A stretch of 64,000 nucleotides of DNA from the NCBI GenBank assembly GCA_947260005.1, contig CAMYOL010000068.1, positions 1 to 64,000 of the forward strand, written 5' to 3'. The notes beneath the pieces are model-generated. The model did not search any database. It worked only from the letters and a program-made list of their open reading frames with translations, and was not told the origin of the DNA. This document shows, piece by piece, positions 2,239-23,500 of this stretch. The translations under genes were made by a program, and so were the position numbers. The DNA comes from an uncultured Ectothiorhodospiraceae bacterium (GTDB taxonomy: Bacteria > Pseudomonadota > Gammaproteobacteria > UBA6429 > Thiohalophilaceae). Positions within the stretch are counted from its first letter, which is position 1; each line of letters starts with the position of its first letter.

Positions 2239-2787
2239 CTATTTATTTATGTAGTTTACAAACGTTTCACTCTTAAGTAATTGCGTGATTGCAGCGATGA
2301 TCGCCCCATCTAATGCTTGCGCAGAACTTCCGGCAGTTTGATAGGTTGCGCTTATTGCCGTAGATTTTCCATTACTCATGCTTGCAGTAATATCAAGGGA
2401 AGTTGATTTGTTAAAGGGTTTATTCGTTGCGTGTACATTACTGATTTTTAATGTGATCGTTTTATAATTAGAATCGGAAATTAATACACCACGTTTACTT
2501 AACTCGGACTCCAAAATTGAAATGGTTGCATCGGTATATTGTTGCAAGTCACCTAATAATTGAGTTGATTTTGAATCATCAAAAATCGTAACTTGCTCAG
2601 ATGACTGGTAATAGTTTTTTATAGCAACCGATTTGCCAGCAACCAGCGGCAATATTTTTTCTTTTACATGATGTCGTGTATGAGAGGCATTCACATACGT
2701 TGTACCCCCACAATTGACTAACAAAGCTGAAAATAGAATTATAAAACTTATTTTTATTGCGTGTTTTTGAAGTATATTCATTTGCAT
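2239..2787 (-). CDS. small putative lipoprotein, function unknown
   Basis: A 182-residue protein with an N-terminal hydrophobic helix ending LLVNCGG. The Cys sits where a lipobox is expected, although Asn at -1 is not the preferred residue, so lipidation is likely but not certain. The rest has the alternating pattern of a small periplasmic alpha/beta domain with no catalytic motif I recognise. The start overlaps the end of the upstream acyl-adenylating enzyme gene by 10 bases. A second Met (codon at 2781) has better spacing from an AAGG motif and may be the real start. It is the last gene of the leftward set that begins with the PAP2 phosphatase, so it is probably co-transcribed. Confidence 0.7.
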   Translation of the reverse strand: MQMNILQKHAIKISFIILFSALLVNCGGTTYVNASHTRHHVKEKILPLVAGKSVAIKNYYQSSEQVTIFDDSKSTQLLGDLQQYTDATISILESELSKRGVLISDSNYKTITLKISNVHATNKPFNKSTSLDITASMSNGKSTAISATYQTAGSSAQALDGAIIAAITQLLKSETFVNYINK

Positions 2788-4358
2788 AACCTTACCAATA
2801 GTTTATTCAGTGCGGGATAGTCTATTTTTGCATTATGCCGTTTATCCACTGGTACCTGAGCGACAGTATAAATCCTGTCAATTTTAGCCCACGCTAAATT
2901 CCGTTTTACTGACGCAGTATTCAAAACTGAATTATGGTGCATCTCTACAACCAGAACCCGTTGTTCCTTAAATGCGACCAGGGCACAACGTCGTACATTT
3001 GAATCACACCGTACAACTGTTTCAACCGCAAAGGGATAAAGCTCTCCATCCGAATCAGATATTTTTGCACTGCAACGCCCCATCAACCATATACGCCCTT
3101 GATCATCAAAATAACCTGCGTCACCCGTACGATGCCATGGCCGTCCCTCTACGGAAAATTTGGTTTCCTCGTTTCCGACGCCATTTAAATAGCCTGGTAA
3201 CACATGATCACCTGCCACCACTATTTCACCGGCCTCATAATTGGCTAAACACATCTCTAGTAATTGTTCTTGCGACATTGGCTCAATGGGTATGTTGGTC
3301 ACATCCTTTATGACCTTTACGTCTATTTGTTTAACAGGCTTACCCACCAATAAACCCTGACCTTTTTGCATATTACTAAAATCGTCTTCGCTAATATCTT
3401 GCCAGTGGATATGCGCAATCGGTTCCGCTTCGGTTGAACCATATACGGCAACCACCTCGGCATTGGATGCCAGTTGTTTCAATTGTGACAATAGACCTGG
3501 AAAAACCGGTGCGCCACCGGTATCGATTCGTTCAAAATTTAATTTTTGACCCTCATTTTTAAGACAATGATCAACTAATTGCTCATAAAAGGCAGGCGAT
3601 GCTGCACAACGTGTAGCTGAAAATGTCTTAGCCTGCTGCAATACGATACTTGCATCCACTTTTCCGGGGAAACGAAGGTCGACATCACATAATAAACTGG
3701 TTATCCCAGAAGCCAGATTGGCTAAGACAAAAATTGGTAAGGTACTCACATCTACCTGGCCAGGCTGATGATCAATGTTGTCGGCTAACACCTTGTGTTG
3801 TGCTAATAAAAACCCGTGCGTCCGGACTGCTGCCTTTGGCAGACCCGTACTACCACTGGTAAAAGTTATTAATGCAGGCAAATCATCTCTGGCATTTACT
3901 ACTTCAGTTAAAGGTTTGCATTGAGTTAAATCAGAAAATGATTTAGTAAATGGTAGCCAGCGTCCCACACCGATCTTGATTGGGATTGACCTCAACGACT
4001 TTGACGCGAAACGAAGAAGCTGCGCTTTACTACTGCCAATAAACGCCTTTGGCCTCACGCGCTGACAACACCGCTCCAGGTGATTGAGTCCTACGGATGG
4101 GTCAACAAACATGGCAACCAGGCCAAGCCTAAAGATCGCAACTAAAATAATATATAGCTCAGCACTAATGGGTTGAAAAATTAATATCGTGTCACCCTGT
4201 TTCAGCCCATACGAATTTAGTAAAGTCGCAAACCGTGCTGACTGGCTGTTTATTTGTAAGAAAGTGGTATGGCGTTCATGCCCGATCACACCATCTATAA
4301 TCGCCGTCTGACTTGCACGATGTTCAGCTTGTTGTTGCAGAACCTCGGCTATATTCAT
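2778..4358 (-). CDS. OleC-like acyl-adenylating enzyme / beta-lactone synthetase family
   Basis: ANL-superfamily AMP-forming enzyme, 526 residues. Visible motifs: the phosphate loop TFTSGSTGLPK near 165-175, VYGSTEAEP near 310, the hinge region HRTGDAGYFDDQGR, and a C-terminal PVDKRHNAKID. The C-terminal motif, the N-terminal RLGLVAMFVDP segment and the KAFIGS segment resemble OleC of the olefin pathway (OleABCD) more than ordinary acyl-CoA ligases. OleC turns beta-hydroxy acids into beta-lactones using ATP. No OleA, OleB or OleD is present in the window, so if it is a beta-lactone synthetase the lactone may be the end product. Its start lies three bases after the GNAT stop, which indicates an operon. 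A plain acyl-CoA or acyl-AMP ligase role is the alternative. Confidence 0.85.
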   Translation of the reverse strand: MNIAEVLQQQAEHRASQTAIIDGVIGHERHTTFLQINSQSARFATLLNSYGLKQGDTILIFQPISAELYIILVAIFRLGLVAMFVDPSVGLNHLERCCQRVRPKAFIGSSKAQLLRFASKSLRSIPIKIGVGRWLPFTKSFSDLTQCKPLTEVVNARDDLPALITFTSGSTGLPKAAVRTHGFLLAQHKVLADNIDHQPGQVDVSTLPIFVLANLASGITSLLCDVDLRFPGKVDASIVLQQAKTFSATRCAASPAFYEQLVDHCLKNEGQKLNFERIDTGGAPVFPGLLSQLKQLASNAEVVAVYGSTEAEPIAHIHWQDISEDDFSNMQKGQGLLVGKPVKQIDVKVIKDVTNIPIEPMSQEQLLEMCLANYEAGEIVVAGDHVLPGYLNGVGNEETKFSVEGRPWHRTGDAGYFDDQGRIWLMGRCSAKISDSDGELYPFAVETVVRCDSNVRRCALVAFKEQRVLVVEMHHNSVLNTASVKRNLAWAKIDRIYTVAQVPVDKRHNAKIDYPALNKLLVRLCK

Positions 4359-4361
4359 GAT

Positions 4362-5372
4362 TTAACGAAATGACCTGGAAAATAAGGTATAAGTGCGCAT
4401 TGGTGTTGCGTAATGCCCGCTTATGTTACGAGAAACATTACCGTTAAACATTAAGGCATGGATGGCTCGCTCAAAACCCATTACACGAGCCTGCTGCTGC
4501 ACCTTATCGACCAGCAATGCACCCAAACCGGCATGACTGTTTTCGGGTAATACCGCGACGGTTTTTATTATTACAGTCTTAACCTGTTCACCGCGCTCTT
4601 TTTCATTAGCATCCGGTATTGCAAATAAATAACCAATTGGCTGTTCATCTTTTTCAGCAATCAGGGTTAGTTCAGGTATAACCAGTTGTTTAACTTTCAT
4701 ATATTGGGTGACGAAATCTTCTTCGTCCAATGGCGTGTATAAATAGTTTTTACTAAAACTCTCCACCGAAATCGAATAGATCCGTCTCAGTTCTTGCTCA
4801 AAATTGTTTATATTCAGGTGGCGAAAGTAAATTCCTTTTTGTTGCAGGCGTTGCTCTACTTTTGGAAGACGTTCATCACGCTGGGTCAGGTCCGTCGTTA
4901 ACCCCGAACTGTATTCGGCCAATGGTTCAAAACCATAATCAATCCAGTACTTCGGCCAGCTCGGCGGGTTCGTTGGTTCAAGGAAAAATGGTGGTTCGCT
5001 TCCAGCATCGGTAACAAACCGATAACTGCGCCAGGTATTTCCGTCCATCGGGCCAATCGCGCGTGTACATTTCTGCATCTTTAATAAAAAACAGGCGTTA
5101 TTTAACATGACCTCCGTCGCCTTATCCTGCTCACTTTGATTATTGTCAGTCGCATAGTGACCAATAATGCCTAGCTTTTCGTTTTCAAGTTTTGGTACAT
5201 CAGTCCACCACAATGAACAACGCGCCTGAACCTGACCAAAATCATCCACGCACGCTAAATGCAGATCGACCTGTTGTTGCACCAGAATTTCAGGAGCAAA
5301 ACTTTGATATACACCGGCATTTAGATATTGTGCTAATTCCGACGGGGATTTAATTTGAGCTATTATTGACAC
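4362..5372 (-). CDS. GNAT-family acyltransferase
   Basis: A 336-residue protein. The C-terminal half (about 190-336) has a GNAT fold pattern, with the acetyl-CoA-binding segment PENSHAGLGALLVDKV followed by an Asn/Tyr-rich end. The N-terminal half is conserved-looking, with GPMDGNTWRSYRF near 118-130 and EPPFFLEPTNP near 140, and probably forms a second GNAT-like lobe. It would transfer an acyl group to an amine or alcohol; the substrate is unknown. The position between a P450 gene (28 bases upstream) and an OleC-like gene (3 bases downstream) suggests a tailoring step on a lipid-like small molecule. Confidence 0.8.
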   Translation of the reverse strand: MSIIAQIKSPSELAQYLNAGVYQSFAPEILVQQQVDLHLACVDDFGQVQARCSLWWTDVPKLENEKLGIIGHYATDNNQSEQDKATEVMLNNACFLLKMQKCTRAIGPMDGNTWRSYRFVTDAGSEPPFFLEPTNPPSWPKYWIDYGFEPLAEYSSGLTTDLTQRDERLPKVEQRLQQKGIYFRHLNINNFEQELRRIYSISVESFSKNYLYTPLDEEDFVTQYMKVKQLVIPELTLIAEKDEQPIGYLFAIPDANEKERGEQVKTVIIKTVAVLPENSHAGLGALLVDKVQQQARVMGFERAIHALMFNGNVSRNISGHYATPMRTYTLFSRSFR

Positions 5373-5400: not shown

Positions 5401-6675
5401 TTATTCTCGCCATTCAATATTCATCATTAGCTTATTGCGAACTCTAAGCGTAATACCGGGTTCTGGCTCGACCGATTCTTTGTTAACAAGCCGTAAACGG
5501 CAGCGTTGCAGCAAATAGACTAACACAATCATCGCCTCCTGAATGGCAAAGTTTTTCCCCAGACACATCCTGTGACCTAAACCGAATGGCATATAGGCCG
5601 TGCTGGCATCACGTTTACTATCAAACCGTTCGGGGTTAAATTTATCTGGGCTCTCCCAGAAATCCGGATGTCGGTGTAAAGTATAGATGCTTATAAATAG
5701 GGTCGAATTTTTTTTAATCTTATACCCTGCTATTTCATCGACGTCACGCGCACTGCGTTCGATCGCCCAGATTGGCGGATATAAACGAATAGCTTCATAA
5801 AAAACCTGAAGGGTGTAGGTTAAGTTCGATAGTTTTTCAATATCATCTACTGGACCATTAAAATGCTCAGTAATTTCATCGTAGACTTTTTGCTCGACGT
5901 CAGGATGTTGAGCCAGCAGATACCATACCCAGGTTAACGCATTTGCAGTCGTTTCATGACCAGCCAATAATAAAGTCACCACCTCATCTCGTAACCAGAC
6001 CGAGTCAAATAGTGTCTCACTTTGTTGTGCAGCGATCATTTTATCCAGCAAATCATTAGTATCGTGATTTTTAATAGTGAGACGCCGTTGTAAGATATTG
6101 TCGACTATATGATGTAATTTTTTACGTTCATGCTTGAAGCGCTGATTACCAGAGGTCGGAATCATCAGCGGAAGAGCAACTCCAAAGATCCTTCTGTAAA
6201 GATGCAACAATGACACTTCCATCGACTTTGCAACCTGGTCAGTCGTATGAGTTAAATCCTCACTTAATAAAGATTTTCCTATCACCTGATAAGTCAGGTG
6301 CATCATCGCAGAATGTATATCAACCGGTGTATTGTCGTTACGCCACTCCTCTAATAACAAATTACTCTCTGACTCGACGACATCTTTAAATTTTTTAACC
6401 GTATCAACTCGAAAGGTGTTTTGTAGCTGGCGTCGCTTATGATACCAACTGTCGCCATTATCCGTTAATAGGCTTTGCCCCGCCAACAACCGAATTTGCT
6501 GGCTGCTACGTCCATCTTTAAGGTAATTATCTTTGTTCGAGACAAGAACATGTTTAGCAAACTCTGGATGATTAAGTGAATAGTATTGAAGATGGGCAAG
6601 ACGAAAACTGACCATGTCACCATACTGGCGATGTAAATTTTTCAGCACGGTAAGCATATTGCCCCGTATGTCCAT
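5401..6675 (-). CDS. cytochrome P450 monooxygenase
   Basis: Haem-thiolate monooxygenase, 424 residues from the first ATG. The core signatures are present: oxygen-activating I-helix AGHETT, K-helix EAIR, NPERF, and the haem loop FGLGHRMCLG with the ligand at Cys371. It resembles the fatty-acid-hydroxylating CYP4/CYP102 group and has no fused reductase, so separate electron-transfer partners outside the window are needed. The start is a problem: the usual P450 N-terminal motif (PPGPNGLPLLGN) is encoded in frame at about 6679-6714, upstream of the first ATG, in a stretch open to 6765 that has no ATG, GTG or TTG. A non-standard start (ATA at 6726 or ATC at 6723, right after the PAP2 stop and a GGGAAAAA motif) or a frameshift from the PAP2 gene would supply it. 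Confidence 0.93.
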   Translation of the reverse strand: MDIRGNMLTVLKNLHRQYGDMVSFRLAHLQYYSLNHPEFAKHVLVSNKDNYLKDGRSSQQIRLLAGQSLLTDNGDSWYHKRRQLQNTFRVDTVKKFKDVVESESNLLLEEWRNDNTPVDIHSAMMHLTYQVIGKSLLSEDLTHTTDQVAKSMEVSLLHLYRRIFGVALPLMIPTSGNQRFKHERKKLHHIVDNILQRRLTIKNHDTNDLLDKMIAAQQSETLFDSVWLRDEVVTLLLAGHETTANALTWVWYLLAQHPDVEQKVYDEITEHFNGPVDDIEKLSNLTYTLQVFYEAIRLYPPIWAIERSARDVDEIAGYKIKKNSTLFISIYTLHRHPDFWESPDKFNPERFDSKRDASTAYMPFGLGHRMCLGKNFAIQEAMIVLVYLLQRCRLRLVNKESVEPEPGITLRVRNKLMMNIEWRE

Positions 6676-6727: not shown

Positions 6728-7396
6728 TTATTTTTCCCGTTTTTCCCAGTTTTTAGAGCTGACCGCTATCCGTCGCATATAGAATCGTTCGGCCAACATG
6801 ATACCAATAAAAGCCGTCAATAACCCGCCAAATATATCGATTAAATAATGCTGCTTGGTGGTTAATACTGTTAATACTAATAGTATAAATACTAGTCCAT
6901 ATAACCAGGCCCATTTTTTGTGTTGTTGTGCCAGATACCAAAACCCTATCCCCGGAACACAAACATGACCTGAAGGAAAACAATTTGCAGGCGTATCTAT
7001 TCCCGTCAACCATAGATAAATCGCAGTCGTGACATTAGTCACTTCTGGAGCAGGCGGCCTGGGATATACGGTTGGAAAAAATAAAAAAATAGAGTAGTTA
7101 ATGGCAACCGCGAATCCAACCGCATACAACGACTTTATAAATGTCGATGGCGTATCTAAAAAAACGGGTAAATACATGCCACCAATTAAAAGAAAATAGG
7201 GTAATACTGTCCAGGGCAAAAAGGGAATATCGTTTTCGAATTCAAAAAGCATAAGTGACTTCGGTTCGAATACCTGGAATCGATTAGTCAACTGATAACC
7301 TACATATAGGAAAGAAGTCCAGACAAGGACAACCACGAATCTTCTTAGAAAAGGATATTTTCCTGATATATAAAGGCTAATCTTTTGCTCGATCAA
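6728..7396 (-). CDS. PAP2-family membrane phosphatase/phosphotransferase
   Basis: A 222-residue multi-pass membrane protein with about six hydrophobic segments. The PAP2 active-site motifs are visible: YPRPP near residue 110, CFPSGH near 143, and TTKQHYLID near 190. The TTKQHYxID form is typical of the PAP2_3 branch, which includes AUR1-like inositol-phosphate transferases and lipid phosphate phosphatases. It would hydrolyse or transfer a lipid phosphate at the outer face of the inner membrane. It is first in the leftward set with P450, GNAT and the OleC-like enzyme, and its 3' end overlaps the open P450 frame. Confidence 0.88.
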   Translation of the reverse strand: MIEQKISLYISGKYPFLRRFVVVLVWTSFLYVGYQLTNRFQVFEPKSLMLFEFENDIPFLPWTVLPYFLLIGGMYLPVFLDTPSTFIKSLYAVGFAVAINYSIFLFFPTVYPRPPAPEVTNVTTAIYLWLTGIDTPANCFPSGHVCVPGIGFWYLAQQHKKWAWLYGLVFILLVLTVLTTKQHYLIDIFGGLLTAFIGIMLAERFYMRRIAVSSKNWEKREK

Positions 7397-12616: not shown

Positions 12617-13930
12617 TTATACGAATCCAGCGGCAATCAACGACACCGCAAATCCAATTCCAGCTTGACGCCAGAACCGTGCATTATTAATCGGGCAATC
12701 TTTGATATCAGGTTGTAGATAGTAAAAACTGACTACGGCAATGGCGACTAAACTCGCACCCAAGCTCGCATTGGCGATCGCCGTAAAATCAATCCCCACG
12801 ATTAACATCCAGGGTATAAAGATGATAATACCGGCCTGCACTGTGCAACGTGTCCACAATATAATTCTATTTATGTCGGGGAATTGGTGATGTAAACGCG
12901 CAAGACCGATCATCCCTAACTGCGCTGCAAAACTAACTGTGTATGGATAATACAGTTCGTTAATATTTTGATCTCGAGCGATAAACAACCAGACCATGCC
13001 CGGCACGGTGACGGAAAGAACAGCACGAGCATCATGAATGCGTTCTGTGTTTTCCTGTGTTTTCGGCGACAACACATGATAACTAATAAATACTAATATC
13101 GCTGGCAATAACCAGGTCCAGTCACCTGCGGCCCAACAGAGATACCCTGCCAGGGCGGCGGCTAAGGCGGCACTGTCATTTAAGGTCGTACGTTTTCGAT
13201 ATAGAAAGAAAAACACAAATAAAGCGACAATGACTATCAACCGAACACTTAATTCGGGCACGTTCATGTCCATATAGACTTTTAACAACAAAAATCCGCC
13301 TAATGGAATAAACAGGTTGTCGAGACCCTGCCACGACACCGCCTCGATGTACATGACTAAGGTGGCGATGATTAGCGCAATTAACAGAGTTTCAGTGCGG
13401 CCAACCTCGGTAAATAACAAAAGCGGAATCAAGGTGACTAACAGTGCCATAGTAAAAAAGGCAATTGAGCCTTCTGTGCTTTTAACGCCATCGGAGGTGG
13501 TGTATTTAATTGTGCCATAACGTACACCAATTAATGCGGCGACCGCATCGGCCAGGGTTAAGATCAGCACGGGAATGATATACAGGATCGGGGCGTCCTG
13601 ACTCAGGGTAAAAATAATAGCAATTGAAATCGGAAAATAGATCTCACCTAAGGACTGCCGAGCCACCCCGTGCACCACATTGCTGATGGATTTGGTTTTT
13701 ATAAACTTAACTGCTAACAAGGCGATGACGGCCAGTACGGCGAGTAAGATAACGGGCCAGGCCGTACTAAATATCCAGGGGAAACTTAGCGTGACCAGCC
13801 CCATGCCAATGTGTAATAACTTGCGAACTAATTCTGGATGGGGCTGTTTGTTTTTCTGGTAGTAGGCCAATGCACCGACAAGCCCCGCCAATAAAGATAA
13901 AACGATGATAATCCCAAACCATGGATTCAA
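12617..13930 (-). CDS. membrane phytol/dolichol-kinase-like protein with a second membrane domain
   Basis: A 437-residue multi-pass membrane protein. Residues about 30-215 match the phytol kinase/dolichol kinase/CTP-transferase family: HPELVRKLLHIGMG near 32, LADAVAALIGVRYG near 126-139, and KSTEGSIAFF near 150. Such enzymes phosphorylate long isoprenoid alcohols using CTP. The C-terminal half (about 230-437) is another set of membrane helices beginning with TLNDSAALAAALAGYL, which weakly resembles the DUF92 family that includes phytyl-phosphate kinase VTE6, though the family's DTxxSE motif is not visible. If the resemblance holds, the protein would carry both steps from alcohol to diphosphate. 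Its start lies two bases after the DUF3419 gene, indicating co-translation. Confidence 0.8.
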   Translation of the reverse strand: MNPWFGIIIVLSLLAGLVGALAYYQKNKQPHPELVRKLLHIGMGLVTLSFPWIFSTAWPVILLAVLAVIALLAVKFIKTKSISNVVHGVARQSLGEIYFPISIAIIFTLSQDAPILYIIPVLILTLADAVAALIGVRYGTIKYTTSDGVKSTEGSIAFFTMALLVTLIPLLLFTEVGRTETLLIALIIATLVMYIEAVSWQGLDNLFIPLGGFLLLKVYMDMNVPELSVRLIVIVALFVFFFLYRKRTTLNDSAALAAALAGYLCWAAGDWTWLLPAILVFISYHVLSPKTQENTERIHDARAVLSVTVPGMVWLFIARDQNINELYYPYTVSFAAQLGMIGLARLHHQFPDINRIILWTRCTVQAGIIIFIPWMLIVGIDFTAIANASLGASLVAIAVVSFYYLQPDIKDCPINNARFWRQAGIGFAVSLIAAGFV

Positions 13931-13932
13931 AC

Positions 13933-15030
13933 CTAGATCACCTCTTCGACGATGAACTTACTGTAAAAAAAGGCCTTGTCATCTAAATGTAATCGTTCTG
14001 ATAATTCTGTTAACGGTTTTATTCGGTCATAATAGCTTTTCGGAGATTCGCGCGGGGCTAACATGTTCCAGTAGGCGAGGCGTGCGCCAGAAGCCCCTGC
14101 TTCGATGAGCTTATCCAACAAAGTAGTAAAACTGTCTTCGGACATGTATTCAAAGATATCACTCAGATTATAACCGGCAATGGCATTGGCTCCCGCCTCT
14201 TCTAAATAGGCCTCAATCGATGACTGTCTCCACTCCAGGCGATCCAGATTATTCCTGATCTTATCAAAATTTTCTTCACGCAAAGCAAATGGCAGGGCAT
14301 AGGGATGCTCTCCGGTGAGTATCCATTGCAAATAAGGATTCTCGGATGGGTTTAATTCAGTTAAGGCATGTTTAGTACGCTCCAGTATTCTGTCCGCGAC
14401 ACTGCCTTCGACGTATTGAAAAAAACTGGGGTCCCGTCCCATGCGTCCCATCACAAAACGGGAAAAAAATATTTTAAATAAGGCCCGCCAACGCCAGTTG
14501 TTCCAGACATTATCATAAAAGGTTTTACGGTAGGTAAGATCACCACCCTGGATTAGCTGGTTAATGCGTTTACGTGAATGTATTAACGGGATGACTTTGT
14601 TTTTAAATAAAGCAAAATAACGTTCGAATTTTCCGGCCGCCCCAATCCCCTGTTCGATCGCATCGCTTTTATTATCCCAAAATGTTTGTTCTTGTTTTGT
14701 TAATAAGGATCGGCAGCGTTGATAGAGATCGGCACGTTGCTGGCTTGGTTTTGAACCGATGAGTTCTAATAATTCAGAATGCTTGAGTTCTTTATAGGCG
14801 GCAACTCTTAGCGCCAGACAATTTAATTGGGTGGTATTTAGATCCAATGCGACAACGCGTTCGGGTGACTGGCTTAAAATTGCCAATGCATTGTCACCGG
14901 CAGATGCGATTGATAAATAGACGCCCCCTTTACTTGGCACTAATGCCTCGACCAGGATATCCGCATCTTCCCAGCATTGGGCATATCGAATCAGATCAAA
15001 TTCGGCACGTGCTTCTACTTCTGATGACAT
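13933..15030 (-). CDS. BtaA-like (DUF3419) AdoMet 3-amino-3-carboxypropyl transferase
   Basis: A 365-residue protein with the opening YAQCWEDADILVEAL, the nucleotide-binding segment SIASAGDNALAIL (about 40-52) and VVALDLNTTQL, all features of the DUF3419/BtaA family. BtaA transfers the 3-amino-3-carboxypropyl group of S-adenosylmethionine to diacylglycerol, the first step of betaine-lipid synthesis. BtaB, the N-methyltransferase that completes that lipid, is not in this window. Given the isoprenoid neighbours, the acceptor could be a different lipid alcohol. It is separated from the upstream phosphotransferase gene by 260 bases and nearly abuts the downstream kinase gene. Confidence 0.85.
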   Translation of the reverse strand: MSSEVEARAEFDLIRYAQCWEDADILVEALVPSKGGVYLSIASAGDNALAILSQSPERVVALDLNTTQLNCLALRVAAYKELKHSELLELIGSKPSQQRADLYQRCRSLLTKQEQTFWDNKSDAIEQGIGAAGKFERYFALFKNKVIPLIHSRKRINQLIQGGDLTYRKTFYDNVWNNWRWRALFKIFFSRFVMGRMGRDPSFFQYVEGSVADRILERTKHALTELNPSENPYLQWILTGEHPYALPFALREENFDKIRNNLDRLEWRQSSIEAYLEEAGANAIAGYNLSDIFEYMSEDSFTTLLDKLIEAGASGARLAYWNMLAPRESPKSYYDRIKPLTELSERLHLDDKAFFYSKFIVEEVI

Positions 15031-15290
15031 CTAACGAACTCCCCACGTATTTATTATATTTTTAGTATTCCATAAATGAATTCTTGCTTCTCGAGATTCC
15101 TGTTCCCGTCGTTCCCCTGGAGAGGGGAATCTATTATATATGGATTACCGCCTCGGCCCTGGCTCCTGCTTCGCCCTACCGCCTACGTCCATGTAGGCGT
15201 CCGCGGGTAAAGTGCCCCCACGGGTATGTCTGGGGATGACAGTATATTCGGAAATGATGCCGCGAGTTCAATAATGACGGCATCAAACCT
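15031..15290. repeat. palindrome-rich intergenic stretch, possible degenerate dispersed repeat
   Basis: Holds several short perfect inverted repeats: TTCCCCT/AGGGGAA (15112-15129), CGCCTAC/GTAGGCG (15180-15199) and CCCCA/TGGGG near 15211-15235. It is richer in G+C than other gaps here. The pattern resembles the dispersed non-coding repeats common in Gammaproteobacteria. It interrupts an otherwise tightly packed operon and could affect expression of the two downstream genes. Confidence 0.4.
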
Positions 15291-18095
15291 TTAATCAATT
15301 TCTTGTTCGTATATTCCTCTTTGGGTGGGATCAAATACCTTTTCATCTTTGGGTTTAGCAACCACTTCACCCTCTACTTCATCTATATCAAGATCATCAT
15401 GCTGATTTTCATCGAGTCTATCATTGTGTTTTTGTTCGTCTAATTCGGTATTTATTTTTCTAACACTACCAAGTCGGCCATCCATCTCAACCCAATCACC
15501 ATCTTTTAACCAATCGGTTACGCCATCGAGCGAGACGACTGCCGGTATGCCCATTTCTCGTGCCACAATTGCGGAGTGTGATAACAGGCTACCGTGCTCG
15601 ACTAATAACCCCGAGGCGGCCGGGAATAACATGATCCAGCCGGGATCGGTTCGTTCTGCCACCAGGATCTCTCCCTGATGTAATTCAACTCCACGCGGAT
15701 CGCGCACGACTCGCACCTGGCCTTTTACCACACCAGGACAACAACCTATGCCCTTTAGCTCATCGCCCTCAACGGGTAATTTTTCTCGTGGTGACTGGAA
15801 ATCATGACCATGATAGATAATGCCACGCGTTTCAAATCGATCTGATGGGCTGGCGGAGTTTTCATATTCATTAAATTCTTTTTTACGTAGTGCGATCAAT
15901 GCCATTAAATCATTGGTGGTTGCCGTCCCCTCGATATAACTTACGATCTCGCCCACCTCAAGGTAAAATATATCGCGAGGCTCACTTATAAGTCCAAAGT
16001 CTCGTAAACGGAATCCGACTTCTACAAAAATATTTCGAATACGGCCAAAAACCCGGGTTCGTTCAAAACGTAGATTTTCACGATCCGATACCCGCCTCCT
16101 GGCATTTTTAAGCACCCAGGCAAAAAGCGTTTTACGAATATAACTGCCCGCAAATAATTCACGCACATGATCCTCGGCTAATATTCGTTGCTGGCGATCT
16201 TTTTGCTGTTTCTCGGGTTGCGTCTGTAATCTTCGAGCCATATGCCCAATCGAACGTAAAACCGGTAGCGGATTATCATGTAAAGTCGGGCTTTCGAGTT
16301 TTAATTCATCCAGGCAACGATCACCAAACTTCTTCAGGTAAGCATAATATTCGGCATAAAATTCCTGATAGTTTGGCAGACGTCGGTAGATATCCAATAC
16401 ACTGCCTTCGCATAATAAGTCGATCAGCTCAGGATAGAGGAAGATCATCTCGGCCATTTTTCGAATTCGTTGTGCAGGCTCAGCACTAATGATGTCGCCC
16501 TCGCCAACAAGTAAATCATTTTGCAAAGTACCATCAGTGTCATCACACCATTTTTCAGTGAGCTTTTTTAATATGCCATAGAAGATCATTGCAAAGAAAT
16601 CATTGATCAGTGGCGCATCCCAGCGTTTTAATAGCTGACACTCAAGTGCATGGTAATACTCGATTAATTCATCCGCTCTTTTATGTTGAATTGGTATCGC
16701 TGGATCCGCTAACGCTGTGTTTAAACGTTTATAGAATCGTTTTATCTTGCCGGATATTAAAAAGTGGTTTATTAGCAGGCCAAACAAGGTAGACGATAAC
16801 CGCATGCCATCTCGTAACTTAGCCCATTTTGAACCTGGCTTGTCTATCTTATTGATGACTTCCTCAGGCATGGTTTCCTTGACGCCCATCATCTGTTCCA
16901 TGAAGCTACGATTCATCTGGAAACCGGGTAATAATGCCAACACCTGATACCAGCTAATAAGATTATAATAAACCTGGCCCCGTACCAGACCCAGCATGCG
17001 CGCAAATAGCGCATCGTTTTGAGCAATGATTTTTTTCGGTACGCGCATCAAATGACAAAACTCACGATACACCGAGGTATAGGCACGACTGGCAAACGAG
17101 AAGGTCAGTGGTGTGGTCACACCGCGATAACTCTCGGCAATATTGCTGTTATCCCAAATAATCAGGTTGGCATCGGGATCCGCCATTTGTTGGATTGAGG
17201 TAATAGGACGAGATTGTAACAAGTAGATCTTGTTTTCAAATCTTGCCCACTCAATATCTTGTGGACAATTAAAATACTTTTCACTGCGTCGAACCAGACG
17301 GGCAATCTCTTTGACTTCTTCATCACTTAACACAGACTGGCTTGCCATATCACCGTCCAGATCTTTTAACTTCACACCCTCGACCGCGGTTGGATCCATT
17401 TCGTGCGCCTGGCGCTTATTAGCAATCTCGCATTTGCTAATCTCCTCAACACGATTCACATAATAGGTATCAGCATCAACATCCCCTGAAACCAGCGCGC
17501 TGCCTAAGCCATAAACTGCACCAACGACTGATACCGTACGTTGGCCCGTCACTGGATCGGCACTAAACGCCACCCCTGCTGCCTCCGCATTGATCATCTT
17601 TTGTATCAACACCGCCGGTGCAGGTGGCGGCAAGCTCAATTTATTCTCCTGACGATAGGTATAGATTCTTTCAGAAAAACCGGATCGCCAGACCTGTATT
17701 ATTCTTTGCGCCAACTGTTGTTTATCGACAAACAACACACTCTCAAGCTGTCCGGCAAAGGAATGCTCGGCCCCATCTTCATCAAGCGCAGACGAGCGTA
17801 CCGCAACCAATTCATCATCGGGACATAAACGAGACATCGCATTAGCAAGTAAATTGCTTAATTTGTGGGTGATCGTTAGTTGAGATAATGATGACTGCAA
17901 CTGATCAAAGCTCATTTGCGAGTCAGAATCTGTCCACTTTTGTGTTAAATCTTCGGGCAAACTTTCATAAAAAGCATCCGGTGTAATAACAAACCATTCA
18001 GGGATTGCAAAATTAGCTAATTCTAAATTAGCCAGAGCACGCGCTTTACCGCCAATATTTATATTGTCGTTAATTTGTTCTGAAAAATAAATCAT
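15291..18095 (-). CDS. PEP-synthase-like phosphotransferase with rifampin-phosphotransferase domain plan
   Basis: A 934-residue protein. Residues 1-about 310 are the ATP-binding domain of the PEP synthase/PPDK family (INIGGKARALANLELANF; AVRSSALDEDGAEHSFAGQ; GVAFSADPVTG; LLQSRPIT). About 315-740 is a helical middle domain. About 790-890 is the swivelling phosphohistidine domain, with SLLSHSAIVAREMG and His840. The C-terminal PEP/pyruvate-binding barrel of true PEP synthase is absent, so the order ATP domain, substrate domain, His domain matches rifampin phosphotransferase. It probably transfers the beta-phosphate of ATP to an organic acceptor, here perhaps an isoprenoid alcohol. The acidic tail (about 890-934) is unusual. 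It lies ten bases after the prenyltransferase gene. Confidence 0.88.
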   Translation of the reverse strand: MIYFSEQINDNINIGGKARALANLELANFAIPEWFVITPDAFYESLPEDLTQKWTDSDSQMSFDQLQSSLSQLTITHKLSNLLANAMSRLCPDDELVAVRSSALDEDGAEHSFAGQLESVLFVDKQQLAQRIIQVWRSGFSERIYTYRQENKLSLPPPAPAVLIQKMINAEAAGVAFSADPVTGQRTVSVVGAVYGLGSALVSGDVDADTYYVNRVEEISKCEIANKRQAHEMDPTAVEGVKLKDLDGDMASQSVLSDEEVKEIARLVRRSEKYFNCPQDIEWARFENKIYLLQSRPITSIQQMADPDANLIIWDNSNIAESYRGVTTPLTFSFASRAYTSVYREFCHLMRVPKKIIAQNDALFARMLGLVRGQVYYNLISWYQVLALLPGFQMNRSFMEQMMGVKETMPEEVINKIDKPGSKWAKLRDGMRLSSTLFGLLINHFLISGKIKRFYKRLNTALADPAIPIQHKRADELIEYYHALECQLLKRWDAPLINDFFAMIFYGILKKLTEKWCDDTDGTLQNDLLVGEGDIISAEPAQRIRKMAEMIFLYPELIDLLCEGSVLDIYRRLPNYQEFYAEYYAYLKKFGDRCLDELKLESPTLHDNPLPVLRSIGHMARRLQTQPEKQQKDRQQRILAEDHVRELFAGSYIRKTLFAWVLKNARRRVSDRENLRFERTRVFGRIRNIFVEVGFRLRDFGLISEPRDIFYLEVGEIVSYIEGTATTNDLMALIALRKKEFNEYENSASPSDRFETRGIIYHGHDFQSPREKLPVEGDELKGIGCCPGVVKGQVRVVRDPRGVELHQGEILVAERTDPGWIMLFPAASGLLVEHGSLLSHSAIVAREMGIPAVVSLDGVTDWLKDGDWVEMDGRLGSVRKINTELDEQKHNDRLDENQHDDLDIDEVEGEVVAKPKDEKVFDPTQRGIYEQEID

Positions 18096-18105
18096 ATTCT
18101 TAATT

Positions 18106-19047
18106 TCATATCATCTTAAAATAAAATAGTGTTAAGGGTACAACGCCTAAGCTCAGGTACATTAACAAGGTCCAGATCCCTGACATCTTTTCAATCCACG
18201 ACGCACGTTGACTGTTTGGCTCATGTAAAAATTTAACCGCCAAAATGCTGGCCAGCGCGATCAACACCGCCAGCATCACCAGGACCTGATAAAAGAAATC
18301 AATCAATGCCGCCGCTGCACTGGCAGAGATGGCGGTAATGATCATCGCCGACAACCATAATATGACCGCTCTTTTGCGACCCCATAAAACAGTATAGGTC
18401 TCTACACCCTCTTCTTCATCCTCGGGGGCCCGAATCTTGCGCCCGACTTCTATAACAATGCCGTTAAAAAAACTAACGATTAAAAACCAGAACAACCCAT
18501 GGGGTGGGCTGGTTAAACCGGCACTCATCCAGTCCGTTGCGGTGGCATAGAAATCAATTAACGGCATGATCAACATATGTGACCACATATAAGTAATGGG
18601 ACTTTGTTTTAACCAATCGGCAACAAAAAATTCTTTACTCATTAAAGCCAGATAGAGCCAGGTGATCAACAACGGGATGATCAGCAAATAATTCAACCAA
18701 ACCGCCAGAACTAATTGGATCAATATAATAAAGGCCCCGATCCAGCCTAATTCTTTTAATGATACCAGGCCCCGTGGTACCGGACGATAAGGGCGGTATT
18801 GGCTATCTTCTTCAAAATCCTTAAATTCGTCGGCAATGCGTAATAATAAAAAGAAAATAAAGGAGGTTATAAAGGCCACACTCAATACGGCCACACTGGG
18901 TAACTCAATGCTCGTGGAGAGACCCAGGTTATGACGTAATAAAATAGAGAAGCTGACAGCAGAAAAGCTAAAGGCAACGACCAGCAGGCCATTTGCAAAG
19001 ACCGGGAATCGTTCGCGTTGATACACCCACCAGCGGTTAAGACTCAT
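18106..19047 (-). CDS. UbiA-superfamily membrane prenyltransferase
   Basis: A 313-residue protein with about eight or nine membrane helices. The first Asp-rich motif is DEFKD (Asp73-Asp77), followed by RPYRPVPRGLVS. The second is shifted and very acidic (RAPEDEEEGVETY, about 196-210) but sits where UbiA enzymes have their second Mg-diphosphate site. It would join a prenyl diphosphate to an acceptor in the membrane. The motifs do not decide between an aromatic acceptor and a glycerol or other alcohol acceptor. It does not look like housekeeping UbiA and no ubiC is adjacent. It lies 14 bases after the HMG-CoA reductase gene and 10 bases before the phosphotransferase gene. Confidence 0.88.
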   Translation of the reverse strand: MSLNRWWVYQRERFPVFANGLLVVAFSFSAVSFSILLRHNLGLSTSIELPSVAVLSVAFITSFIFFLLLRIADEFKDFEEDSQYRPYRPVPRGLVSLKELGWIGAFIILIQLVLAVWLNYLLIIPLLITWLYLALMSKEFFVADWLKQSPITYMWSHMLIMPLIDFYATATDWMSAGLTSPPHGLFWFLIVSFFNGIVIEVGRKIRAPEDEEEGVETYTVLWGRKRAVILWLSAMIITAISASAAAALIDFFYQVLVMLAVLIALASILAVKFLHEPNSQRASWIEKMSGIWTLLMYLSLGVVPLTLFYFKMI

Positions 19048-19061
19048 CGAAGATCCATTTA

Positions 19062-20339
19062 TCAGGCCTTTTCTGCTCCGCGCGCAAGATTTTTATGAGC
19101 ACGGGTGAAATGGCCTGCAGCTAATGCACCGATAATTGATAACTCACCCGCCAGCGCAACACTCGCGGTGACCTCGGCAAAGGCCTGTGCGTGTCCGGCA
19201 CCGGCCAAGCCCATAATTTCCAGACAAGCACGCTGACTAGGCAGACCAGTGCCACCGCCTACCGTACCCACAATTAAGTTTGGCATGGTCACCGCTGCAT
19301 ACAATCCACCGTCTTTATTAACTTCAAAACGCGTTACCCCGACCGCAGACTCTGCGACACAGGCGGCATCTTGTCCACAGGCAATATATAGCGCGGCTAA
19401 TCCATTTGCATAATGCCCCTGCACACCAATGGTCCCGCTCAATACCCCTCCCATAGCCGACATACGCCAATAGTCCACCATTTTTTCGGGGGTGGTGTGT
19501 AGCATCTTTTTAATCAGTTCTTTACTTAAATGAATTTCCGTTGTGACCTTTTTGCCCCGCACGGATAAAAATGATTGCGCACTGGCTTTTTTATCACCCG
19601 ATAGGTTAGCTTCAACAAAATGGTATTCCGGGTTAACCGGGGTGTTTTCAATGATATAGGCCACCACAGAATCGGTCGCAATGGTCACCATGTTTTGACC
19701 ACCGGCATCACCGGTTGAATATTCAAAGATTAAGTAAACATGATTGCCTTCCACGGTAATCCGCATATCGACCAATTGGCCATGCGCAGTAGTTTGCTCG
19801 GCTATATCAGTAAATTTTTCCTGACTGGAAATGGCCCACATTGAAAAACGACCGGCATCGTGAACATTTTTAAATGCAAAACCGGGCGCACGACTCACAC
19901 CTTCATTCAGTAGAATCGCGGTACATCCACCGGCCTTGGTGATAAGTTGCGCACCGCGATTATAAGATGCAACCAATGCAGCTTCAGATGTGGCAAGCGG
20001 AATATTGTAATCACCTTGTGCGAATAGACCGTTAACGCGTAATGGTCCGGCTAACCCGATCGGTAATTTTATGGTGCCGATAAAGTTTTCGATATTTTTT
20101 TTATAGATCTGCATTTGTGCTTTTGTTTGCGGATCAAGTATTTGTTGTTGAGCCGTGTCATCAAGTTCAAGCACATCCCAGCGTGCTTGCACAGCTTCAT
20201 CAGTCAGTTTGTGATTGCGGGGTAGACGCTGGTAGGGTAAATCGGGTTTTGTGGCTAAGCGTTTTTCTAATTCTGATTCATCTAAACCGGCTAAATATTT
20301 TGCTAAAAAAAGACTGGCTCGATCTTTGTTTGCTGCCAT
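19062..20339 (-). CDS. hmgA: class I HMG-CoA reductase
   Basis: Reduces HMG-CoA to mevalonate with NAD(P)H. The 425-residue soluble catalytic domain shows the class I signatures ENFIGTIKLPIGLAGPL (84-100), PLATSEAALVASYNRG, GDAGGQNMV, GDKKAS, CGQDAA and VGGGTGLPSQ. The catalytic residues are all present: Glu119, the Lys250/251 pair, Asp324 and His415. There is no membrane anchor, as in archaeal and bacterial enzymes. A good ribosome-binding site (GGGAGA) precedes the ATG, and a TATAAT-like sequence lies at 20395-20400 on the minus strand. It is the first gene of the five-gene operon. No other mevalonate-pathway gene is in the window, and most Gammaproteobacteria use the MEP pathway, so acquisition by transfer is likely. 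Confidence 0.95.
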   Translation of the reverse strand: MAANKDRASLFLAKYLAGLDESELEKRLATKPDLPYQRLPRNHKLTDEAVQARWDVLELDDTAQQQILDPQTKAQMQIYKKNIENFIGTIKLPIGLAGPLRVNGLFAQGDYNIPLATSEAALVASYNRGAQLITKAGGCTAILLNEGVSRAPGFAFKNVHDAGRFSMWAISSQEKFTDIAEQTTAHGQLVDMRITVEGNHVYLIFEYSTGDAGGQNMVTIATDSVVAYIIENTPVNPEYHFVEANLSGDKKASAQSFLSVRGKKVTTEIHLSKELIKKMLHTTPEKMVDYWRMSAMGGVLSGTIGVQGHYANGLAALYIACGQDAACVAESAVGVTRFEVNKDGGLYAAVTMPNLIVGTVGGGTGLPSQRACLEIMGLAGAGHAQAFAEVTASVALAGELSIIGALAAGHFTRAHKNLARGAEKA

Positions 20340-20568: not shown

Positions 20569-23500
20569 TTATTGGATATTCACTGTAAAGTCTTCCGTTT
20601 CTCCCCAGCTGTACGTACCACATGCTGAGGGGCTAGTACCCCATCGCATGGCAACCCGCATCCGCGTATGTCCAAGCTGAGCCGTAGTCGGCACAGTGAT
20701 GGTACTGGTTAAACTGGTAAAAGAACTACCGGACGAAACCTGCTCATCAGGTGTGAATTCACCATCGCGATTCGTATCTAACCAGACAGCCCAATGTTCA
20801 GTATAAGGACGATAGCGGAAGCCTGGATTCATGATAATTGGGTAACTGCCACTACGTTGAATGTTCAAAACTGTCCCGGTATTGTCATTGTAACCATTGT
20901 TATTTCCGCTCACCATTAACTGACCATTAAAATCAATGCTCTCGATCCATTCGAACCATGTATTCTGACCACTGCTAGAACAATAATTCAATGGCGCGAC
21001 AGAATTGACTGTTAAATTAATTGAATCCGTCGCTACACTACCATCAATATCCGTTATGGTAGCCGTTACTACGTGCTCGCCGAAACTTAGTGCAATCGGT
21101 AAATTCGTACCGGCTCCCAAACTACCATCAATACTGGAAGTCCATTCTACTCGCGCTGAAATATCACCCTCTTCCGGGTCCGTTGCACTCGCACTAAACA
21201 GAACTTCCATACCCTCATCAAATATTGAACCATCAATCGGATCGATTATTGATATGCTTGGCGGTAAACTTAATAAACATTGCTCAGGTCGAATGACCAC
21301 GCCATCACCGTATTGTGATTCAAGCCCATCAACCCCAAAACATAATAAATTTGTATTTCCCGTTAAGTCTATAGTTTTCGGGTTGGCAAAAGTATTAAGC
21401 TGCAATACATCGATTGGCAAACCGCTTATATTAGGTAACAAACTCTGCAACGATAAAACATGTAAATTTGTTAACTGAGTAATGCCATTAACATTTTCCA
21501 GCGGATTTTGATCGAGCTTTAATTCTATCAGACTTGAACTACCTCCTATAGATGAAAAGTCTGTAACTCCAAGATTTGCCAATCCTAGTGAACGTATATT
21601 AGGATTATTAAAAGAAATTAATCCTATATCATTATATAAGGGTGGATTTTGCGGATCTTGTGTATTAGATGATATGTCTAATTTTTCAAGAAAGTTAAGA
21701 TTGAATATCTGAGAAAGGGAATAGATATTGTTATTCGACACATCTAATGCCCGTAAATTGGTTAAAGAATCTAAACCATTCAAATCCAGAATGGAATTTT
21801 GACTAATATCCAACTGCATAATACTTATGAATTGTTGAAGCTCAAATACTGAACTGATACCGGTATTACTAATATCAAGGTTTCGAATTACAGCTGGGGA
21901 TACAGGGCTGGGACTGCCAAATGTTAGTGCGCTTATATTACCAATTTGAATCCCGGACAATCCAATGGTAGTCAATAATGGATTATTAACTAACAATGAA
22001 TTTACTTCCGAAATTGATATATTGGGATTACCTGATAGATTGAGTGAACGTAATCGCCCCTGGCTATTCATTTGGCCAATACTACTGGCACCCGTGTAAC
22101 TGATATCCACTTCACTTAAAAGCGGTAATAAACCAACCGGAACCACATCGATTAAGCGGTTATTACTGATGTTTAAGTCTCTCAGCGATATCAGGGTCGC
22201 AAGTGAGGCGATATCGGTAATACCGGTATTGCTAACATCTAACTTTGATAGTTGGTATGGCTGTCCTGTTGGACTGGTAAATATCGGTAATAGATTAATA
22301 TCGGTAATATTCAAACCCGAAACATTCAATGATCTCAGATATGGGTTTTGTGCAATTGCCGAGAATAAACCCGATAAATCGGTTAACTGACTGTTATTCG
22401 AAACGTCTAATGCTTTTAAATTATATAGCGTGTTTAGTGGCGACAAATTGGTAAGTTGGTTATTACTGGCATTTAACTCAGTTAAATCAGGAAATGCTGT
22501 TAGTGGAAATAAATCTAATAACTTATTATTGCTGACGTTTAGATTAAGCAATCCGATCAGGCCGCTAATTGCTGAAATATCAGATATTCCTGTATTAGAC
22601 AAATTCAAGCTGGTTATAGGATATGGATTACCACCAAAGTCATACAATGGCAGCGCAGATAGATTTGAAATAAATATATCAGCAAGTCCTAGCTCAGATA
22701 ACCTTGGTTTATTTAATAAAATATTAATAAGTTCTACTTGCTGTAGACGGACATTGCCCGAAACATCCAGCTTCGACAATTTTTCTTTATCGTATAATGG
22801 CGTCAGAATTTCTACGTTATTACCACTGATATCCAGAACTTCTAAATCAGAAAAAACGGATAATGCAAATATATCTCGAATTCCCGTGTTATGCAGTCGT
22901 AGCGACGTAAGCGGATAAGCTCCACCTGTTTGAGAAAAATAGATTGGCAGTGAATTTAAATCGGAGATAGGCATTCCACCTAGACCCAATTTTTTCAAAC
23001 TATTATTATTCGCGATAACATTCTGGACTTGAAATACATCGCCCAACAGATTATCTGATATATCAAACTCAACCAGGTTGGTCATCCCATCCAGTGGATA
23101 GGGATCGACTATAAGATTATCACTTAAATCAAGTTTTTGTAACGAAGGATACCCGGCAAGCATTCCGATATCGGATATACCTGTGTTAGATAAGTCTAAT
23201 TCAACAAGAGCATAAGGTTGGCCTGTTTGATTATTAAATAGAGGTAATAAATTTATATCCCCGATATGAAGATCCTCAAGGTATAAGTTGGTAATACCAA
23301 TGTTATTCCCGATCACTTCGTAAGTTTCAAAACTGTTTATTTTATAGTTACCTGACAGATTTAAATGAGTGATATTAGTGTGAGTCATTAACGGGGATAA
23401 AATTTCGATATCATTAGCTGCTAAATTAACAACTTGTAAATTAACTAAACTACTTAATTGACTAATATCATGAATACCTGTTCGTGCTAATTGCAGTTCA

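Follow-up and report, generated by a model that had tools for sequence, protein, structure and literature searches.

The 64,000-nucleotide stretch analysed here (the window: positions 1 to 64,000 of contig CAMYOL010000068.1, from an uncultured Ectothiorhodospiraceae bacterium) encodes a conserved set of seven proteins: an HMG-CoA reductase (HMGR)-like enzyme, a UbiA-superfamily prenyltransferase, a phosphoenolpyruvate synthase (PPS)-like phosphotransferase, a BtaA-type DUF3419 protein that would use S-adenosylmethionine (SAM), a membrane kinase-like protein, a GNAT N-acyltransferase and an AMP-forming acyl ligase. We read the locus, with a probability of about 0.45, as one pathway, spread by horizontal transfer, that makes a ceramide-like lipid or phospholipid with N-acyl and prenyl groups on a four-carbon (C4) unit from SAM. 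The argument starts from the gene set and its co-inheritance, the conserved catalytic motifs, the changed substrate pocket of the HMGR-like enzyme, the lack of HMG-CoA synthase and the GNAT protein's homology to E. coli YghO, all of which we observed; every substrate, the order of the steps and the product we infer.

A co-inherited gene set in many phyla

Loci were collected by a scan with the UbiA protein, one genome per species, which gave 59 loci. UbiA is therefore present by construction, and because many contigs are cut the counts for the other families are lower bounds: PPS-like 57, DUF3419 48, ligase 42, HMGR 41, GNAT 41 and kinase 39. An earlier note on this DNA had described the first five genes as an operon and proposed a search for their co-occurrence elsewhere; all five families were found in 32 of the 59 loci, and in 30 of these the genes run colinearly on a single strand. 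Clustering of the open reading frames (ORFs) flanking the loci added the GNAT and ligase families, which the note had missed; they lie at 2778-5372, outside its span, and its five-gene set is real but incomplete. All seven families occur in 31 of the 59 loci (28 colinear), and 51 of 59 are colinear for whichever families they carry. For each of the 21 pairs of families the distance matrices are correlated (r 0.50-0.85), and none of 2000 permutations gave a value as high. The recurrence and order of the five families and the co-inheritance of every pair together exclude chance clustering.

The set is real and widespread. Its hosts include Verrucomicrobiota, Planctomycetota, Acidobacteriota, Bacteroidota, Cyanobacteriota, Bacillota and Pseudomonadota, among others, and the UbiA tree spans 13 named phyla besides unnamed rows. 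Phylum changes on this tree number 19, against a minimum of 12, and some transfer is therefore allowed; a 137-kb plasmid of Roseinatronobacter sp. S2 carries the complete set of seven, its HMGR gene crossing the start of the record. Within the Gammaproteobacteria the set is rare, with a UbiA match at 1e-10 in 4 of 185 genomes, one of these being weak and without other members of the set. Some hosts are cultured (e.g. Luteolibacter, Sphingobacterium and Brevibacillus) and would permit a genetic test of the pathway. A search on these family combinations, confined to the open-access literature with subscription literature outside it, returned nothing relevant and no description of the set, which is apparently undescribed; the note too had known of no described pathway with these genes.

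The HMGR-like enzyme has a changed substrate pocket

We aligned 44 cluster HMGRs with the human, yeast and one archaeal enzyme. The catalytic residues were retained (E559 in 43 of 44, with one gap; K691, D767 and H866 in all 44), as were R590 and K692; across the kept positions the only exceptions were a single gap in the alignment and a single ambiguous residue. The pocket was altered throughout: in each of the 44 sequences S684 is replaced by Glu, K735 by a non-basic residue, M657 by Gln and Q770 by Cys. We take Ser684 and Lys735 to be the ligands of the HMG carboxylate, as established for the human enzyme. The nearest solved relative is an archaeal class I enzyme (6hr7), and the cluster enzyme is not an orthologue of a housekeeping HMGR. 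HMG-CoA synthase was not found in the window's own genome, and only 2 of the 46 cluster-bearing genomes yielded one. Because the pocket is changed, HMG-CoA synthase is missing and some clusters have no HMGR, we read the enzyme as a reductase for a thioester other than HMG-CoA, acting in an optional step.

Other HMGR-like types were also seen in Gammaproteobacteria (loci L070, L071 and L074-L103); one of them, in L076-L081 and L083, keeps S684 and has lost K735.

A proposed N-acylation pair with a ceramide-type acyltransferase

In 35 loci the GNAT gene is the one immediately downstream of the kinase gene, and the ligase is co-conserved in 43 loci. The GNAT family aligned with E. coli YghO over its full length (hhalign probability 98.9, E 1e-17, 286 columns). 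In hmmsearch it scored 68 bits, and within the ORFs of the loci covered by that search the hits were confined to cluster or cluster-like proteins. An AlphaFold2 (AF2) model showed a tandem GNAT. In work on bacterial sphingolipids (PMC9386255), yghO and Caulobacter CC_1154 are given as counterparts that encode the acyl-CoA N-acyltransferase acting in dihydroceramide synthesis. In E. coli its neighbours are spt, an acyl carrier protein (ACP) gene, a gene of the epimerase/dehydratase family and a fatty acyl-AMP ligase gene, and the pairing of GNAT with ligase thus recurs outside the clusters. Serine palmitoyltransferase was not among the recurrent cluster neighbours, the rest of the genome being outside this search.

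Prenyl transfer, phosphotransfer and a proposed SAM-derived amine

The earlier note's prenyltransferase and BtaA-type enzyme are both borne out by Pfam matches and conserved motifs. Across 61 UbiA members the motifs DExKDxxxD and DExxGVxTY are conserved, so that two Asp-rich motifs are present, the first starting with DE rather than ND; the cluster UbiA is supported as lying on the digeranylgeranylglyceryl phosphate (DGGGP) synthase side of the family. In the DUF3419 protein the SAM motif SIASAGDN is conserved. BtaA adds the 3-amino-3-carboxypropyl group of SAM and so supplies an amine. No relative of the DUF3419 protein was found in the PDB, and plasmid-borne DUF3419 proteins outside the cluster share only 20-27% identity. 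A BtaB methyltransferase was absent from the recurrent neighbours and from the annotated window genes near the cluster, where the search for it ended.

The PPS-like protein comprises an ATP-grasp domain, a middle substrate domain and a phospho-His domain whose GSxLSH histidine motif is conserved in 57 members. As the note had it, the phosphoenolpyruvate (PEP)-binding C-terminal domain is absent; both the layout and the best solved match are those of rifampin phosphotransferase, with scores far below the equivalog cut-offs (Rph 313 of 999 bits, PigC 343 of 1300 bits). Beside PPS-like genes, a protein of about 900 residues with a class III aminotransferase and a weak semialdehyde-dehydrogenase-like match was seen in L046 (775-3474) and L008 (14034-16928).

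For the membrane protein, which the note had likened to phytol and dolichol kinases, there was no Pfam match over cut-off. The N-terminal domain carries invariant RKxxH, D..AL.G, GS and E..G.DN..P motifs, a set that we take to recall phytol and dolichol kinases, and the C-terminal half is variable. A 244-residue homologue of the N-terminal domain, of unproven function, is encoded elsewhere in the genome of the cyanobacterium Oscillatoria. The AF2 model was confident and found no fold match in the PDB, so we keep the protein as a putative CTP-dependent lipid or prenol kinase. Enzyme classes for six of the seven genes are well supported.

A proposed pathway and the points against it

In the proposed scheme, the DGGGP-synthase-like UbiA enzyme would first place an isoprenyl group, from a prenyl diphosphate of the methylerythritol phosphate (MEP) route, on a hydroxyl group of some small, polar acceptor molecule, with the Rph-like phosphotransferase phosphorylating either this acceptor or the prenylated product. 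The BtaA-like DUF3419 enzyme would then add the 3-amino-3-carboxypropyl group of SAM to the prenylated acceptor, bringing in an amine and a carboxylate. In a third step the ligase would activate an acyl group and the GNAT enzyme, of the YghO/ceramide synthase type, would N-acylate the amine. Where present, the HMGR-like enzyme may next reduce a thioester to a primary alcohol, with the thioester of the C4 carboxylate as our best guess; this alcohol could be phosphorylated by the membrane kinase or, in some lineages, by an aminoglycoside phosphotransferase (APH)-type kinase fused to the reductase. In some lineages a head group might then be added by CdsA/CarS-like and CDP-alcohol transferase enzymes. 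The earlier note's lipid-directed, prenylated product agrees with this scheme as far as the DGGGP-synthase-side UbiA and the BtaA-type enzyme are concerned; it lacks N-acylation. We hold more tentatively the fuller proposal that the conserved pathway yields a new class of ceramide-like lipid, with an amino backbone from SAM rather than serine and an isoprenyl chain, and includes an HMGR subfamily acting on a different thioester.

Several findings weigh against our reading. About ten cluster genomes have no HMGR, which requires at least 4 independent changes on the UbiA tree and makes the reduction step optional. In the genomes of L065 and L066, whose clusters comprise UbiA, an HMGR ORF of about 915 residues, PPS, GNAT and ligase, DUF3419 was not found though GNAT and ligase are kept, so the amine need not derive from SAM there. 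The cluster ligase resembles OleC-type enzymes more closely than it does the fatty acyl-AMP ligase encoded at the E. coli spt locus. Finally, the P450, sulfotransferase and major facilitator superfamily (MFS) genes of some clusters would also fit a secreted metabolite.

Alternative readings

That last point bears on the strongest alternative, in which the pathway makes not a membrane lipid but a specialised metabolite for secretion, one that is prenylated, acylated, oxidised and sometimes sulfated. A cytochrome P450 gene stands beside five clusters (homologues of the window's P450 flank L046, L050, L056 and L068), the cluster of L068 (Planctomycetaceae) adds SnoaL-like, sulfotransferase, P450 and MFS genes, and patchy distribution with a plasmid-borne copy would suit such a product. 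Other variants point the opposite way. Sphingobacterium clusters carry an additional CDP-alcohol transferase and a CdsA-type enzyme (a cytidylyltransferase). In L065 the additional stretch of the HMGR ORF is an APH-type kinase; next come a CDP-alcohol transferase and a protein with a weak match to CarS. The L109 locus, which is from the same family as the window, combines UbiA and PPS with an HMGR::APH fusion, a formyltransferase-like protein, a fusion of alpha/beta-hydrolase and ligase, and a 400-residue protein that, read by eye, fuses a CDP-alcohol transferase with a CarS-like part. By joining HMGR to APH, the fusion proteins of L065 and L109 connect the reduction with the phosphorylation. 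Given these head-group enzymes and the ceramide-synthase-type acyltransferase, we prefer a lipid; in view of the tailoring genes, a secreted metabolite is a possible but less probable product.

A second alternative keeps mevalonate as the HMGR product, made from the HMG-CoA of leucine breakdown and used as a building block or head group rather than as a precursor of isopentenyl diphosphate. It would make HMG-CoA synthase unnecessary and agrees with the retention of R590, K692 and the four catalytic residues. The change of S684 to Glu and the loss of K735 in every member, together with the several cluster genomes that lack HMGR, make it improbable.

In a third, the ligase would act like OleC and form a beta-lactone, giving a beta-lactone or alkene lipid. 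The window's ligase scored 404 bits with NF006754, and its second-best NCBIfam matches, at about 200-250 bits, are olefin beta-lactone synthetases; the hydrolase and ligase fusion in L109 likewise recalls OleBC. The OleC-type equivalog cut-offs were far missed (248 of 900 and 237 of 850 bits), the best-scoring model belongs to a fatty acid-CoA ligase family, whose cut-off of 478 the L065 ligase reached, and OleA and OleD were not seen in the clusters. We consider a beta-lactone unlikely. As a PRK09274-type enzyme with OleC beta-lactone synthetases next in rank, the cluster ligase is not an orthologue of the E. coli spt-locus ligase either.

The weakest alternative is the earlier note's own, in which HMGR supplies mevalonate and the genes together build or salvage an isoprenyl diphosphate for a prenylated lipid, possibly with a homoserine head. 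Intact catalytic residues, UbiA and a prenol-kinase-like protein would fit it, but the window's own genome lacks not only the synthase but also mevalonate diphosphate decarboxylase (of the 15 genomes tested, 14, this one included, gave no decarboxylase match over cut-off) and has IspG of the MEP route. With the HMG carboxylate ligands lost in 44 of 44 sequences and HMGR itself absent from some clusters, we rejected a mevalonate-supply role as very improbable. The exception among the 15, G065, is the one cluster genome with a genuine mevalonate operon; it has a decarboxylase, and a separate HMGR nearby that is class II-like by reading of its motifs.

Layout of the locus in the window

The ORF coordinates confirmed five genes on the minus strand (12617-20339) with successive gaps of 14, 10, 260 and 2 bases, four of which Pfam models name as HMG-CoA reductase, UbiA, PPDK_N with the PEP-utilizers mobile domain, and DUF3419 (Table 1). 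In most other loci the PPS stop lies within about 25 bases of the DUF3419 start, usually with an overlap of a few bases; in L007 (from G065) the two are a single ORF and stops interrupt the kinase gene, in a sequence with ambiguous bases. A dispersed repeat fills most of the 260-base gap, which is thus a derived state. The gap was also considered as a small gene or RNA, a candidate dropped because the repeat is dispersed in the genome and folds with no more than mild stability (z -1.94). The PAP2 protein had no homologue in the other loci.

Table 1 Features of the locus in the window.
Feature	Position	Strand	Basis
HMGR-like enzyme, read as a four-electron acyl-thioester reductase; class I fold, changed acyl pocket	19062..20339	-	PF00368 386 bits
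UbiA-superfamily prenyltransferase	18106..19047	-	PF01040 56 bits; nearest solved relative DGGGP synthase, PDB 6m31, E 2e-8
PPS/rifampin-phosphotransferase-like ATP phosphotransferase	15291..18095	-	PF01326 218 bits and PF00391 82 bits; best PDB match 5fbs
Dispersed GC-rich palindromic repeat	15090..15260	-	45 further matches in the same genome
DUF3419 (BtaA-type) SAM-dependent 3-amino-3-carboxypropyl transferase-like protein	13933..15030	-	PF11899 224 bits; SIASAGDN motif
Putative membrane CTP-dependent lipid/prenol kinase-like protein	12617..13930	-	Conserved motif set; AF2 pLDDT 93.7
PAP2-family membrane phosphatase/phosphotransferase, adjoins P450; pathway membership unproven	6728..7396	-	PF14378 33 bits
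Cytochrome P450, optional tailoring enzyme	5401..6675	-	PF00067 270 bits
Tandem-GNAT N-acyltransferase, YghO/bacterial ceramide synthase type	4362..5372	-	hhalign to YghO; co-conservation
AMP-forming acyl ligase, PRK09274/OleC-like	2778..4358	-	PF00501 166 bits; co-conservation

Two neighbours were noted in passing: a PAS-GGDEF-EAL signalling protein (25-2220) beside the second part of the cluster, and a 1567-residue leucine-rich repeat protein with a GEVED domain (20569-25272) directly upstream of the operon.

Comparison with known systems

If our reading is true, a lipid or metabolite pathway common to many phyla has gone unrecognised. It would also mean that some genes annotated as HMG-CoA reductase, in bacteria that have no mevalonate pathway, encode members of a subfamily acting on a different substrate, and so would correct a common annotation.

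There is a likeness to bacterial ceramide synthesis (spt, acpR, aasR, epi/CerR and YghO/CC_1154; PMC9386255), which shares an AMP-forming acyl ligase, a YghO-type tandem GNAT and the N-acylation of an amine. The clusters differ in having no visible serine palmitoyltransferase or ACP, their amine would come from SAM by way of DUF3419, and the ceramide pathway has nothing that corresponds to their UbiA, PPS-like and HMGR-like enzymes. Synthesis of the betaine lipid diacylglyceryltrimethylhomoserine (DGTS) by BtaA and BtaB likewise uses a DUF3419 enzyme with a SAM-binding motif, whereas no BtaB-like methyltransferase gene was seen in the clusters. With archaeal ether-lipid synthesis (geranylgeranylglyceryl phosphate (GGGP) synthase, the UbiA-family DGGGP synthase, CarS and a CDP-alcohol transferase) the clusters share the DGGGP-synthase-side UbiA and, in some variants, CdsA/CarS-like and CDP-alcohol transferase enzymes; GGGP synthase was not seen in them, and they add DUF3419, GNAT, ligase, PPS-like and HMGR-like proteins.

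Among single enzymes, the HMGR-like protein has the fold, the catalytic Glu/Lys/Asp/His and the NADP(H) region of class I HMG-CoA reductase, but S684 and K735 are replaced and 44 of 46 genomes have no HMG-CoA synthase. The PPS-like protein follows rifampin phosphotransferase (Rph) and prodigiosin ligase (PigC) in its ATP-grasp, large middle and phospho-His domains, in the same order, while falling far under both equivalog cut-offs. Because the clusters fail the mevalonate and ceramide features tested and have no visible betaine-lipid or archaeal ether-lipid partners, we consider the pathway new as a set, assembled from enzyme superfamilies that are themselves known.

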